Shown here: in pieces, positions 3,638-8,021 of the stretch
Numbering within the stretch: the stretch's first letter is position 1
Layout: every line of letters starts with the position of its first letter
Assembly: GCF_003012935.1 (NCBI RefSeq)
Contig: NZ_PUDR01000008.1
Coordinates: forward strand, 124,001 to 188,000
Source: Pannonibacter carbonis
GTDB lineage: Bacteria; Pseudomonadota; Alphaproteobacteria; Rhizobiales; Stappiaceae
Direction of reading: 5' to 3'
Length of the DNA stretch: 64,000 nucleotides
Made by a program: the position numbers and the translations under genes
Notes under the pieces: generated by a model
Seen by the model: the letters and a program-made list of their open reading frames with translations, nothing else
Told to the model about the DNA's origin: nothing
Databases searched by the model: none

Positions 3638-4354
3638 TCAGGCAGGGAGCACAGGCTTACCAGTCCAGGCGGCCTCAAAGAAAGCGAATTCCAGTTCGCA
3701 CATGCGGGAGAAAATGGCGGAAACACGGGCCTGATCGGCTTGCGACAGCGCCGGGCCGACCCTGTCCATTTCCTCGCGCAGCCAGCCGACAAAGCCTGAA
3801 AAGCCGGGGCCGGCATGGAGATCGATCCACTCCGCCAGCCAGAAGGCATCGGGCCGCGGGTGGGCTGCTTCCCGTTCACCCCAGGTGAGATAGACCCATT
3901 CGGCGCAGAGCAGGCAGGCAAGGCCCTCGGCGTAGGTGCCCGCCCCGGCGCTGTCGAGCAACAGCTGCGCAAAGGCGCGGGTGACCGGACCCTGGGCTGC
4001 GGCCACATAGGTCTCCGATGGCGCGTTCAACGCCGCAAAGGACCGCAGGAAATAGTCATTTTCCTCTGAGGTCAGCAGGGCAAGGAAGCCGGCGAGCCGC
4101 CGCTTTGCCGCCATGTCCGGTGCCTTGGCGACGAGATAGCCGAGGACCGAGGCGAGATCGGTGATGAACGTGTAGTCCTCGATCAGGTAACGGACATAGG
4201 CCGCCTCCGGCATCGAGCCGTTGCCGATCGCGACGGTGAAAGGATGGCCGCAGGCCTGGTTCCATCTGTCGTCCGCTTGCGCAACCAGCCAGTCAGAGAA
4301 GCGGGCATCGGGATGAGCGGCTGCAAAGCCAGCAAAGGTGCGGGGCGATGTCAT
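3638..4354 (-). CDS. TenA family protein (thiaminase II / thiamin salvage type)
   Basis: An all-helical 238-residue cytosolic protein of the TenA/THI-4 family, which hydrolyses degraded thiamin or aminopyrimidine derivatives for HMP salvage. Supporting segments are the N-terminal HPFTVAIGNGSM and YLIEDYTFITDLA, the central CLLCAEWVYLTWGE and the C-terminal ELEFAFFEAAW containing the conserved acidic residue. By eye, the position of the classical catalytic cysteine (preceding Y-W-x-Y in Bacillus TenA) is occupied by Ala, with a Cys one residue earlier, which would place it nearer the glutamate-type TenA group. No thi gene is adjacent and no thiamin riboswitch is seen. Confidence 0.8.
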   Translation of the reverse strand: MTSPRTFAGFAAAHPDARFSDWLVAQADDRWNQACGHPFTVAIGNGSMPEAAYVRYLIEDYTFITDLASVLGYLVAKAPDMAAKRRLAGFLALLTSEENDYFLRSFAALNAPSETYVAAAQGPVTRAFAQLLLDSAGAGTYAEGLACLLCAEWVYLTWGEREAAHPRPDAFWLAEWIDLHAGPGFSGFVGWLREEMDRVGPALSQADQARVSAIFSRMCELEFAFFEAAWTGKPVLPA

Positions 4355-4446: not shown

Positions 4447-5481
4447 TCAGGCGGCCTGCTTCTTCGGGGTCAGCAGGCGACGGTTGACCAGCACTTCGGC
4501 GATCTGGATCGCGTTGAGGGCGGCACCCTTGCGCAGGTTGTCGGCGACCACCCAGATGTTGAGGCCGTTCTCGACGGTCGCGTCTTCGCGGATGCGCGAG
4601 ATGTAGGTGGCGTCTTCACCGGCGGTTTCGTAAGGCGTGATGTAGCCACCGTCCTCGTGCTTGTCGATGACAAGGCAGCCCGGAGCCTCGCGCAGGATGT
4701 CGCGGGCTTCATCGGCCGTGATCGGACGCTCGAACTCGATGTTGACGCTTTCCGAGTGGCTGATGAACACCGGCACGCGGACGGCCGTGCAGGTCAGCTT
4801 GATCTTCGGGTCGAGGATCTTCTTGGTCTCGGCCATCACCTTCCACTCTTCCTTCGTGTAGCCGTCTTCCATGAAGACGTCGATGTGCGGAATGAGGTTG
4901 AAGGCGATGCGCTTGGTGAACTTCTGGTTCTCGACCGGGTCGTTGACGAAGATGGCGCGGGTCTGGTTGAACAGCTCTTCCATCGCTTCCTTGCCGGCGC
5001 CGGACACCGACTGGTAGGTGGAAACGACAACGCGCTTGATGCCGGCCGCTTCGTGCAGCGGCTTGAGCGCGACAACGAGCTGGGCCGTCGAGCAGTTCGG
5101 GTTGGCGATGATGTTCTTCTTGGTGAAGCCGGTGATGGCGTCAGCGTTCACTTCCGGAACGATCAGCGGGACTTCCGCGTCGTAGCGCCAGGCGGAGGAG
5201 TTGTCGATGACAACGCAGCCCTGTGCACCGATCTTCGGCGCCCATTCCTTCGCGACGTTGCCGCCGGCGGACATGAGGCAGATGTCGGTGTCGGAGAAGT
5301 CGTAGTTCTCGAGGGCCTGGACCTTCAGCGTCCTGTCGCCAAAGGACACTTCCGTGCCAAGCGAGCGGCGGGAGGCCAGCGCGACGACTTCGTCCGCCGG
5401 GAAACCGCGCTCGGCCAGAATGTCCAGCATTTCGCGGCCCACATTGCCCGTGGCGCCAACAATCGCAACCTTGTAACCCAT
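4447..5481 (-). CDS. asd: aspartate-semialdehyde dehydrogenase
   Basis: Reduces L-aspartyl-4-phosphate to aspartate semialdehyde with NADPH, the branch-point step for lysine/diaminopimelate, methionine and threonine. The 344-residue protein begins GYKVAIVGATGNVGREML (Rossmann loop); C130 in NPNCSTAQL is the catalytic cysteine; the C-terminal domain carries VRVPVFISHSESVN. Start chosen at ATG 5481, which has AGGAA 8 nt upstream. The frame stays open upstream to an ATG at 5589 that overlaps the stop of the leader ORF; that extension is low-complexity and not part of the normal fold. Expression is probably controlled by the Thr/Met/Lys-rich leader. A strong terminator follows. Confidence 0.96.
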   Translation of the reverse strand: MGYKVAIVGATGNVGREMLDILAERGFPADEVVALASRRSLGTEVSFGDRTLKVQALENYDFSDTDICLMSAGGNVAKEWAPKIGAQGCVVIDNSSAWRYDAEVPLIVPEVNADAITGFTKKNIIANPNCSTAQLVVALKPLHEAAGIKRVVVSTYQSVSGAGKEAMEELFNQTRAIFVNDPVENQKFTKRIAFNLIPHIDVFMEDGYTKEEWKVMAETKKILDPKIKLTCTAVRVPVFISHSESVNIEFERPITADEARDILREAPGCLVIDKHEDGGYITPYETAGEDATYISRIREDATVENGLNIWVVADNLRKGAALNAIQIAEVLVNRRLLTPKKQAA

Positions 5482-5588
5482 GATCGTGTTCCTCATCCGT
5501 CTCCCCGAGACCCGGCGCCGCGACGCATCACGACTGCCTGGCTCTCTGGCGCTCCCCATCCCGGGGGAGAGCGGGACGAGAGGCACCA
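5482..5588 (-). promoter_or_regulatory. structured 5' leader between leader peptide and asd
   Basis: The 107 nt between the leader stop and the asd start contain two candidate stem-loops: a long one between about 5583 and 5542, with outer CTCTC/GAGAG and inner GCTC..CCC/GGGGAGC arms, and a short GTCTC-GGG-GAGAC hairpin at 5511-5499 immediately before the asd ribosome-binding site. No U-run follows either stem, so this is not an obvious Rho-independent attenuator. Translational masking or a Rho-dependent mechanism fits better. Pairing was done by eye. Confidence 0.5.
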
Positions 5589-5714
5589 TTAACGGGTAGT
5601 TTTGGTAGTCGTTTTGGTGAGTTTGGTGGCGGTGACGAGCGTGCGAGCGCGAGCAGCGACGGCGGTTGCCATCGTCATCATGCCCGTCATGTCGGCGGCG
5701 TGCCGAATGCCCAT
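5589..5714 (-). CDS. 41-residue Thr/Met/Lys-rich leader peptide of asd
   Basis: A small ORF directly upstream of asd: ATG at 5714, TAA at 5591-5589, with AGGAAA about 9 nt upstream as ribosome-binding site. The 41 residues contain 12 Thr, 5 Met and 3 Lys; the end is KLTKTTTKTTR followed by stop, and the middle is DMTGMMTMAT. Thr, Met and Lys are exactly the amino acids made downstream of Asd. The composition, RBS and position are those expected of an attenuator leader whose ribosome stalls when these charged tRNAs are scarce. The stop overlaps an ATG (TAATG) in the asd frame. I do not recognise a published description of this peptide. Confidence 0.75.
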   Translation of the reverse strand: MGIRHAADMTGMMTMATAVAARARTLVTATKLTKTTTKTTR

Positions 5715-5985
5715 AACTCGTCTTTCCTGTCCGAGACGGGCAAGGTTGTGACCGGGAACACCCGTCTTGTCAACATTTCATTGCGCGGTGCGGGAAGTGG
5801 CACGGCAGCGGCATGCATGCGGCGGCGGGTGCTGATGGGGGCGGTTGTGGCTGCTTGACTACCCGTTGGAGGCAGTCGCATCATGCGTCCGGATTGCTGA
5901 TTTTGACGTCTTGTCATATTTTACATGAATAATACTTGCGATAATAATCTATATTATTTTCAATTTACGTTGCGTATAAACCTGA

Positions 5986-6017
5986 TTGGTTAAACTTAAT
6001 ATTAATAAATTAACCAA
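5986..6017. promoter_or_regulatory. inverted repeat in AT-rich promoter region of chemoreceptor gene
   Basis: TTGGTTAA at 5986-5993 and its exact reverse complement TTAACCAA at 6010-6017 are separated by 16 nt, within an unusually AT-rich stretch (about 5915-6030) upstream of the chemoreceptor start. It could be a regulator site or simply the promoter region. It does not match the TTAA-N7-TTAA spacing of a CtrA box. Confidence 0.4.
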
Positions 6018-6053
6018 ATTCTACTTCAGTCTTCATATTCGGGTGTCTTGATC

Positions 6054-8021
6054 ATGATCTCCATCTTCGGAAGATTGCGGGTTGCGGCTCGCGTTCTGCT
6101 CCTGGTCGGTATTTCTGTTGCGTCGGCGTGTTTCCTGGTTGCGGCGCATTTTTACAGCGAAGCCGAGCAGGCCGTGATCCTTCATGACCAGGCGGAGTTT
6201 GTTGCCTTGTCCGAGACCTCGCAGGAGTTGCAGGTGGGCGCGTTGCAGATGCGGCGCCGCGAGAAGGACTTTCTGCTGCGGCGGGACATGAAATATGTCG
6301 AGCAGTACAGGCAGGCCGCGGCCGAGGTATCGAAGTCCGTGAATGAGGTCCGGACCATGTCACTCGCAGGGCCTATCGCGGGCACTGTAAAAGGGCTTGG
6401 TGAGGGAATTGACCACGCCACGGCGCAGTTTGCCAAGGTTGTCGAGTTGCAGCAGACGCTTGGGCTGACCGAGAACGAAGGCTTGCAAGGCAAGCTGCGT
6501 GCGGCGGTACACGGCGTCGAGAAGGTGATCGGTGAGGCCGGGCTCGATCCGATGACAGTCAAGATGCTGATGATGCGGCGGCACGAAAAGGACTTCATGC
6601 TGCGAGGCGATGCCAAATACATCAAAAGCGTCGATGATCGCCGGGCAGAGTTCGATGTATTGCTCTCGGCCTCGACGCTGAATGACAGCCAGAAGGCGGA
6701 TCTGTCAAAGCTGATGGATACGTATCAGACGAGCTTCAAGCAGTATGCGGCCGGCGTTACGGACTTCAATGCGGCCGTGGCCGAATTGAGCGCGATCTAT
6801 GGTGAGGTCGAACCTCTGTTTGACGAGGTGATGCTTTTTGCGGCTGAGGGCCGCAGCGGGATGGAGGCACGGCTGAAAGAGCGGCAGGCGCTGGTGGGAC
6901 ACATGTTCCTCGCCTTCGCCGGCCTGATGCTGGTGCTGACCACCGGACTTGGGGTGATGATTTCGCTCAGCGTATCGCGGCCGCTCAATGCCCTTACCCG
7001 CGTCATGGGACAGCTGGCCGAGGGCGACACCAGTGGGACGGTGCCGGTGCAGGCTCCCAAGACGGAGCTTGGCATGATGGCTGCGACATTGCGCGTCTTC
7101 CGCGAGAACGTCCTGCGCAACCGGGAGCTGGAAGCGGAGCAGGTGCGCAGCGCAGCTGAGGCGGCGGCGGCCAAGAAGATGCTCATGCAGCAGATTGCGA
7201 ACCAGTTTGATGCCAGCGTCGGCGAAATCGTCAGCACGGTGTCTTCGGCCTCCGCCGAGCTGTCGGCAACGGCTGGTGCCATGTCGACCGTATCCGCAAA
7301 CTCGAACGACCGCGCCTTGACGGTTTCGGCGGCGGCCGAACAGGCGAGCGCCAACGTGCAGATGGTAGCGTCCGCGACCGAGGAGATGGCTGCATCTGTC
7401 GCCGAGATCAACATGCAGGTGGTCAAGGCGTCCGAAGTCGCAAGGGTGGCGTCGGACAACGTGACCAAGTCGGCGACGCAGATGGCCTCCCTGGCACAGC
7501 GGGCAGACCGGATCGGCGAGGTCGTGTCGATGATTTCTGCAATCGCCGAACAGACCAACCTTCTGGCGCTGAACGCAACGATCGAAAGCGCCCGGGCCGG
7601 TGTTGCCGGCAAGGGCTTCGCCGTGGTGGCCTCGGAAGTGAAGCAGCTGGCCAATCAGACCGGGGCGGCGACGCAGGACATCGTCAAGCTGGTTGAGGCA
7701 ATCCAGGGCGAGACGCGCAATGCCGTCAACGCCATCAACGGGATCGGTGATGTCATCCGCGATCTGGATGCGATGGCCACGGCCATTGCCGCAGCAGTCA
7801 GCGAGCAGGGCGCGACCACGCGGGAAGTGGCGCGCAACATCTCGGAGGCCGCGACCGGCGCACAGAGCGTGTCCCAGAACATGACGGCTGTGACCGAAGC
7901 CTCACAGGAAACGCTGGCGGCCTCGTCGCAGCTCTACAGTTCCGCCGAAAGCCTCTCTTCCCAGGCTGCGCGCCTGAAAACGGAAGTCAGCCGCTTCCTC
8001 GAAACGATCCGCGCGGCGTAA
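6054..8021 (+). CDS. methyl-accepting chemotaxis protein with HBM-type sensor
   Basis: A 655-residue chemoreceptor that signals to CheA/CheW from the inner membrane. Order: N-terminal transmembrane helix (about 10-33), a long periplasmic helical sensor, a second transmembrane helix (about 285-308), HAMP, and a cytoplasmic signalling domain whose hairpin tip EQTNLLALNATIESARAG lies near 499-516. The sensor carries two copies of a motif, MRRREKDFLLR and MRRHEKDFMLR, each followed by a D/Y-rich turn, typical of the HBM (helical bimodular) domain that binds small organic acids in known members. ATG at 6054 chosen; an in-frame TTG lies two codons upstream. No che genes are nearby, so it is an orphan receptor. 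Confidence 0.92.
   Translation: MISIFGRLRVAARVLLLVGISVASACFLVAAHFYSEAEQAVILHDQAEFVALSETSQELQVGALQMRRREKDFLLRRDMKYVEQYRQAAAEVSKSVNEVRTMSLAGPIAGTVKGLGEGIDHATAQFAKVVELQQTLGLTENEGLQGKLRAAVHGVEKVIGEAGLDPMTVKMLMMRRHEKDFMLRGDAKYIKSVDDRRAEFDVLLSASTLNDSQKADLSKLMDTYQTSFKQYAAGVTDFNAAVAELSAIYGEVEPLFDEVMLFAAEGRSGMEARLKERQALVGHMFLAFAGLMLVLTTGLGVMISLSVSRPLNALTRVMGQLAEGDTSGTVPVQAPKTELGMMAATLRVFRENVLRNRELEAEQVRSAAEAAAAKKMLMQQIANQFDASVGEIVSTVSSASAELSATAGAMSTVSANSNDRALTVSAAAEQASANVQMVASATEEMAASVAEINMQVVKASEVARVASDNVTKSATQMASLAQRADRIGEVVSMISAIAEQTNLLALNATIESARAGVAGKGFAVVASEVKQLANQTGAATQDIVKLVEAIQGETRNAVNAINGIGDVIRDLDAMATAIAAAVSEQGATTREVARNISEAATGAQSVSQNMTAVTEASQETLAASSQLYSSAESLSSQAARLKTEVSRFLETIRAA

Follow-up and report, generated by a model that had tools for sequence, protein, structure and literature searches.

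A threonine- and lysine-rich leader peptide upstream of asd is spread across the order Rhizobiales and adjoins a predicted pseudoknot-forming RNA element

Results

The window analysed here, i.e. the whole stretch of 64,000 nucleotides from Pannonibacter carbonis, contains asd, the gene for aspartate-semialdehyde dehydrogenase (4447..5481, minus strand; 344 aa, MGYKVAIVGATG; Pfam PF01118 and PF02774), which is the only asd match of the genome at E <= 0.001 and whose nearest named relative among the matches listed is that of Pannonibacter phragmitetus, with 94% identity. On the same strand, with 107 nt between its stop codon and the asd ATG, lies a short open reading frame (5589..5714, minus strand) that starts with ATG and encodes a peptide of 41 residues (MGIRHAADMTGMMTMATAVAARARTLVTATKLTKTTTKTTR), 12 of them Thr, 5 Met and 3 Lys; its last 11 codons, which make up the Thr/Lys-rich C-terminal tail KLTKTTTKTTR, include six for Thr and three for Lys. 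Coordinates and counts agree with those of the initial annotation, and the ribosome-binding site that it assigned to this frame is recognizable as a putative Shine-Dalgarno sequence AGGA (5725..5728, minus strand) 10 nt before the leader ATG, which is, like the Shine-Dalgarno sequence GAGGA of asd (5490..5494, minus strand), a consensus reading only. By its sequence, the leader is a short frame with its own start and ribosome-binding site upstream of a biosynthesis gene, as attenuator leaders are, and the tail codons together with the stop codon (5589..5624, minus strand) constitute the proposed stalling zone. To quantify the composition, a tail score was defined as the number of Thr codons among the last 12 codons, to which Lys codons were added where at least three Thr codons were present. 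Of 1058 ORF ends in all six reading frames of the window, a single one has a score of at least 6, namely the leader ORF with a score of 10. The richness of the leader in Thr and Lys is not due to chance.

The leader stop codon overlaps with an ATG (TAATG, 5589-5587, minus strand) that is in frame with asd, giving an extended ORF (5589-4447, minus strand), and an ORF caller could by this route add an N-terminal extension of 36 residues to Asd. The overlapping ATG looks accidental, as it is absent for example from the related loci L002 and L003. As for the neighbourhood, a gene for a methyl-accepting chemotaxis protein (6048-8021, plus strand; HAMP and MCPsignal domains) is oriented divergently from asd, and a TENA/THI-4 family gene (3638-4354, minus strand) lies downstream of asd.

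How far is this leader spread? In a first set of 81 loci, consisting of the window and the best 80 of 572 relatives by asd search, which are the closest ones, a tail score of at least 5 was found upstream of asd in 74 cases, as compared to 0/81 on the reverse strand and 1.4% in shuffled sequences. With a score of at least 6, the respective numbers are 73/81, 0/81 and 0.37% (dinucleotide shuffles). The seven loci below a score of 5 are five loci of Ancylobacter, one whose upstream region is cut off (L042), and one (L040) in which a leader was found by eye in another frame, with the weaker tail KHTAKTSKII and ending right before the same hairpin as described below. This makes 75/81 loci with a leader, 74 by the scan and one by eye, and all 75 of the 75 loci that neither belong to Ancylobacter nor are cut off. 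Leader-bearing genera include Pannonibacter, Roseibium, Stappia, Pseudovibrio, Kaistia, Agrobacterium, Rhizobium, Ensifer, Shinella, Neorhizobium and Ciceribacter. The Ancylobacter loci (L026, L043, L048, L060, L075) have no such leader and share the stretch GCGTAAAAGCCCGCxCTCGxCCGAGCxTGTGAATGGCAGG before asd, which is perhaps a different leader element.

For the order as a whole, 193 of 199 genomes gave asd matches, from which 89 loci were taken, 29 as returned by the search (the window's own excluded) and 60 picked by hand across families. This sample covers 40 of the 52 families in which the search had matches, and it is biased to the most similar Asd sequences because weaker matches were not listed. 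A score of at least 5 was reached by 58/89 loci (reverse strand 1/89, shuffles 0.6%) and of at least 6 by 51/89, and 24 of the 40 sampled families have the leader. At the level of the class, 127 of 142 genomes matched, and 69 loci (29 returned, 40 picked by hand) were analysed, including L171, which belongs to the window's own order and duplicates L155. Here, 5/69 loci have a leader, all of them in other orders (L176, L177, L211, L215, L223), and the controls at a score of at least 5 gave 1/69 on the reverse strand and 0.7% in shuffles. In several of the leaderless loci of the class, the frame before asd is presumably the end of LeuB, and asd is therefore probably part of an operon there. The leader is thus spread order-wide. 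The initial annotation had made its reading depend in part on whether peptide and codon bias are conserved in close relatives, and the leader is kept far beyond these.

Which amino acids are encoded by the conserved tail? In 55 diverse leader tails with a total of 660 codons, 303 codons specify Thr, 117 Lys and only 11 Met. While the Thr- and Lys-rich character ascribed to the peptide is conserved upstream of asd, Met, which had been counted as a further signal, is not conserved; the signal, if the leader is indeed a sensor, therefore consists of Thr and Lys, and Met was rejected as a third sensed amino acid. In pairwise comparisons of eight Roseibium-type leaders (28 pairs), the last 12 codons contain 93 synonymous and 39 non-synonymous differences, a synonymous share of 70% (93/132) versus 27% expected for random single changes, and the preceding 20 codons of the same leaders contain 98 synonymous and 155 non-synonymous differences (98/253). 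Conservation of the tail by far exceeds that of the residues before it and, as judged from these sequence comparisons, Thr and Lys in the tail are under selection at the amino-acid level. All four Thr codons are used in the tails. Of the 229 Lys codons in the tails of the window (5624-5592) and 73 named loci, 81% are AAA, as compared to 6% of the 1716 Lys codons in the asd genes next to these tails; in the 55 diverse tails, AAA accounts for 69% of 117. The preference for AAA could reflect a rare-codon tuning or an avoidance of RNA structure. Ile, which is made from Thr, occurs in the tail of some Rhizobiaceae leaders (KTTIKTV, KIIV or SKII, among L021, L062, L078 and L040).

Between leader and asd, several RNA elements are predicted (all minus strand). 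The 5' arm of a hairpin termed P2 (TGGTGCCTCTCGTCCCG, 5572..5588) would start directly after the leader stop codon and pair with a 3' arm (CGGGATGGGGAGCGCCA, 5547..5563). The apical loop of P2, UCUCCCC (5564..5570), is complementary to the purine tract GGGGAGA (5500..5506) just 5' of the asd Shine-Dalgarno sequence, and their pairing, termed P3, would generate a pseudoknot, as predicted in the lowest pseudoknot fold of the window. The register given here is that of the pseudoknot fold; a plain helix search prefers CCCCGGGAU:GUCUCGGGG. Competing pairings are present in the folds of the window: a segment within the P2 5' arm, CCTCTCGTCC, has the Shine-Dalgarno region of asd as a possible alternative partner, and for CACCAAAACG (5619-5610) in the leader tail a weakly supported pairing with the stop region, termed P1, is predicted. 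The position of P2 was compared in those 51 loci in which stop codon and asd are separated by 95 nt or more (the remaining 4/55 are shorter and were left out). In all 51, the first paired base of the predicted P2 lies at -2 to +5 nt from the last base of the stop codon, -2 being the limit of the search. The purine tract that P3 would target is usually found 16-40 nt before the asd ATG. In several loci, both strands of P3 have changed and are still complementary, as in L140 (CGCUCUUUCC/GGAAAGGGCG), L154 (CUCUCUCGCC/GGCGGGAGAG), L160 (AUGCUCUCCCG/UGGGAGAGCAU) and, outside the order, L176 (UCUCUUCUGC/GCGGAAGAGA).

The statistical tests of these pairings were done with 55 loci of 29 families, i.e. 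the 63 of 158 loci with a score of at least 5, limited to three per family (8 dropped). P2 selected by minimum free energy was often another hairpin (loops of 3-6 nt in 32/55), and P2 was anchored on P3 instead. For the P2 arms, 0/5000 permutations were as good as the own pairs, and 11/51 loci were in the top 5% of their own shuffles as compared to 2.6 expected, with a mean z of -0.38 for the reversed arm, but flanks shifted by +8 nt paired nearly as well (20.4 versus 21.9 kcal). For P3, own pairs were equalled in cross-species permutations 1/2000 times by helix score and 7/2000 times by duplex energy. The P2 loop against the region before the ATG gave 7/5000 permutations, with 2531/5000 for the reversed loop as control, and a weak 243/5000 with one locus per family. 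In fixed windows, permutations gave z 4.4 (0/3000) for leader loci and z 3.0 (5/3000) for leaderless loci; as the loci without a leader are positive as well, composition contributes to the permutation signal. Tests against own dinucleotide shuffles of the partner strand were used to separate composition from pairing, and with fixed windows 15/55 leader loci were in the top 5% for P3 (2.8 expected), as compared to 7/91 leaderless loci (4.5 expected). When the test was anchored at the stop codon, 18/51 leader loci were in the top 5% (2.6 expected), and 7/28 with one locus per family (1.4 expected).

In an alignment of 16 of 19 Stappiaceae-type sequences (A1; L007, L018 and L019 were left out for differing spacing), 97.4% of the cells of P2 and P3 pair, a value reached by 6/500 shuffles, versus 47.5-56.6% in slid controls, and the covariation score was reached by 0/500 shuffles. 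Three pairs, all in P2, have changed on both sides, as many as in 53/500 shuffles, the number of further pair types was reached by 370/500 shuffles, and in P3 six of seven pairs are invariant and none has changed on both sides. RNAalifold found 0 pairs and hence no consensus structure in an order-wide MAFFT alignment (A3), which we take to be out of register, and we rely on the permutations and shuffles done locus by locus. Under an assumed penalty of 9 kcal, the pseudoknot of the window scores -60.3 kcal/mol and the best nested fold -54.2 kcal/mol, but the pseudoknot form including the hairpin is below the nested minimum in only 21/65 loci, with energies and penalty being rough. P1, calculated with non-overlapping segments, gave 13/2000 permutations by duplex energy and 187/2000 by helix, with little or no excess over shuffles. 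Order-wide permutations gave no significant pairing of the asd ribosome-binding site with the stop region (982/2000) or with the leader codons (214/2000). On balance, the P2/P3 pairing and its link to the leader are statistically supported, with the weaknesses given above, and the complementarity of the hairpin loop to the tract in front of the asd Shine-Dalgarno sequence is a prediction only.

Known types of elements were also considered. Between 5380 and 6080 of the window, 0 terminator-like sites were detected on either strand (shuffles average 1.1), in line with the earlier remark that the stems lack a U-run and do not form a classical Thr/His attenuator, and a transcription attenuator of the thr/his/trp type was rejected for the window on this ground. 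A search of 4500..6100 against Rfam release 15 resulted in only two matches, mir-598 and IRES_Bip, with E values of 0.29 and 0.33 and far below the gathering scores, and ten loci had no match at E <= 0.5 in the same release. A known Rfam element, including any described leader family, was thus rejected for the window and these ten loci. A metabolite riboswitch with a conserved core was rejected for the P2 region, of which 46 order-wide sequences in the sequence-based alignment A3 have no invariant column and a mean identity of 44%.

Discussion

How might such a leader control asd? As there is no terminator-like site in the window and the conserved element reaches into the ribosome-binding region of asd, the simplest assumption is that translation of asd is controlled, and we consider it fairly probable that the locus contains a cis-acting ribosome-mediated attenuator by which asd translation initiation follows the supply of charged tRNA-Thr and tRNA-Lys, and which does not use an intrinsic terminator. 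In such a mechanism, the leader ORF would be translated, and a shortage of Thr or Lys would let the ribosome stall within the K-T-T-x-K-T codons that lead up to the stop codon. The stop codon adjoins P2, whose C/U-rich loop would form P3 with the purine tract that immediately precedes the asd Shine-Dalgarno sequence. A ribosome that is parked upstream of the stop codon would leave P2-P3 intact and block the competing pairing of the leader codons, whereas a ribosome at the stop codon would cover the P2 5' arm and thereby open P2. P2-P3 would be the fold of the starvation state with an accessible asd Shine-Dalgarno sequence (ON), and translation up to the stop codon would permit alternative pairings that hide the Shine-Dalgarno sequence (OFF). 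Since asd is needed in starvation, we propose P2-P3 as the ON state, in analogy to the repZ pseudoknot of ColIb-P9 (see below). That ribosomes stall, that asd is affected and in which direction, and that the control is exerted on translation rather than on transcription or mRNA stability, is inferred. Of the attenuator logic that had originally been suggested, the conserved Thr/Lys leader peptide and the lack of an intrinsic terminator have held, and Met had to be removed as signal. The more specific idea of an ancient alphaproteobacterial attenuator, in which one leader senses Thr and Lys and a pseudoknot gated by the leader ribosome controls asd without any terminator, is put forward tentatively, and we would not be surprised if it had to be abandoned.

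What alternatives exist for this mechanism? Attenuation could be translational but without a functional pseudoknot, if the segment behind the stop codon pairs with the asd Shine-Dalgarno sequence and the leader ribosome relieves this pairing. In nested folds, the post-stop segments (CCTCTCGTCC in the window, GCTCTCT in Rhizobiaceae) indeed pair with the Shine-Dalgarno sequence, 31 aligned Rhizobiaceae-type rows have an invariant GCTCTCT and a nearly invariant AGAGAGC, and in the window the accessibility of the Shine-Dalgarno sequence rises from 0.25 to 0.68 once the ribosome edge is at stop+12. However, this relief requires a ribosome at the stop codon and not at the Thr/Lys codons, and the pairing of the post-stop segment with the asd ribosome-binding site is not significant order-wide (364/2000); we regard this alternative as unlikely. 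Against the pseudoknot-based reading preferred here, however, stands the nested-fold scan of ribosome positions with all 55 loci, in which no consistent change in Shine-Dalgarno accessibility was found for stalls at Thr/Lys codons, the mean being 0.48-0.54 for ribosome edges from -60 to +6 and at most 0.60 at +36.

Transcription could also be attenuated without intrinsic terminator, for example by Rho within the 107 nt stretch, with a stalled ribosome or the hairpin relieving termination. The stretch is untranslated and C-rich at its start, and Rho-dependent attenuation by leader ORFs is on record (PMC12218461), but the conserved structure extends to the asd ribosome-binding region, which termination would not need, and such a mechanism appears quite improbable to us. 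It is very unlikely that the element serves as a reinitiation aid, in which a folded P2-P3 brings the leader stop close to the asd start and the Thr/Lys codons set the flow of ribosomes: reinitiation at leader peptides has been proposed (PMC4833913), and the predicted P2 would begin at the stop codon and P3 end near the Shine-Dalgarno sequence, but stop and start are 107 nt apart, and starvation would then lower Asd, which is the opposite of what is needed. Finally, that the ORF simply encodes a small functional protein whose tail composition serves the peptide, any asd regulation being incidental, is hardly credible, as the Thr/Lys tail is far better conserved than the remaining peptide and no similar ORF was found in four loci around the hom and aspartokinase matches of this genome, even though a tagged fusion of the probable homologue from S. 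meliloti has been made and found in the soluble fraction (PMC10117765).

We return to the ribosome-mediated control of asd translation as the preferred reading, and ask whether the element has been seen before. In S. meliloti, the small ORF SEP5, which has six Thr and three Lys codons near its 3' end and is located in the 5'-UTR of a gene annotated as “aspartate dehydrogenase”, has been proposed as a possible leader peptide, and its translation is supported by Ribo-seq and by a Western blot of a tagged fusion (PMC10117765). Four Ensifer loci of our set (L050, L055, L057, L077) end in KTTAKTTTKTV, which likewise comprises six Thr and three Lys, and by this sequence likeness SEP5 very probably is the same element as the leader of the window. 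It is called conserved only in Sinorhizobium, and the passages on SEP5 give no RNA structure (PMC10117765), whereas we find an order-wide spread, a hairpin adjacent to the stop codon and a predicted pseudoknot. The initial view that an asd leader of this kind had not been described needs to be amended, since SEP5 very probably is an earlier sighting (PMC10117765); the order-wide spread and the predicted RNA fold are new here. Beyond SEP5, no other paper pointing to an asd leader element was found in a literature search outside of which most subscription papers remained.

The thrL leader of E. coli (Rfam Thr_leader) is rich in Thr and Ile codons, precedes aspartate-family genes and acts by ribosome stalling. 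The asd leader resembles it as a Thr-rich leader before an aspartate-family gene, and differs in the gene, in having Lys instead of most Ile, and in lacking an intrinsic terminator and an Rfam match. The predicted RNA fold is reminiscent of the repY-repZ pseudoknot switch of ColIb-P9 (IncI-alpha), reportedly described by Asano and Mizobuchi in two papers of 1998. There, a leader ORF is present and translation is controlled by a hairpin loop that pairs with nucleotides immediately preceding the Shine-Dalgarno sequence of the downstream gene. Leader ORF and complementary loop are common to both systems, the pseudoknot at asd being predicted only, but repY-repZ belongs to a plasmid replication gene, is controlled by antisense RNA and does not sense amino acids, and no homology is implied. 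In alphaproteobacteria, leaders are also known from trp (trpL/peTrpL), where rnTrpL is described as the tryptophan attenuator sRNA (PMC10117765), and an ilvB leader has been mentioned (PMC1273637). Like these, the asd leader encodes a peptide before an amino-acid biosynthesis gene in related bacteria, but the amino acids are different, and there is no terminator at asd, which sets it apart from the tryptophan attenuator sRNA.

The asd enzyme makes the metabolite at which the routes to Lys, cell-wall diaminopimelate, Thr, Met and Ile branch. The leader looks like a built-in sensor that would adjust asd when Thr or Lys run short, and its order-wide presence offers a ready, testable control point of this pathway in rhizobia and their relatives. 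Pseudoknot-controlled translation is mainly known from plasmid replication genes, and if the pseudoknot is indeed the switch, leader-peptide attenuation of an amino-acid gene would here be joined to this type of control. The case also illustrates that a small ORF regarded as genus-specific can prove to be order-wide once only the regulatory tail is compared. A particular variant occurs in L050 and 30 other Rhizobiaceae-type loci, in which the loop CUCUCUCC faces two near-invariant tandem targets, GGAGAG upstream and AGAGAGC at the Shine-Dalgarno sequence, an arrangement that could act as a sliding lock.
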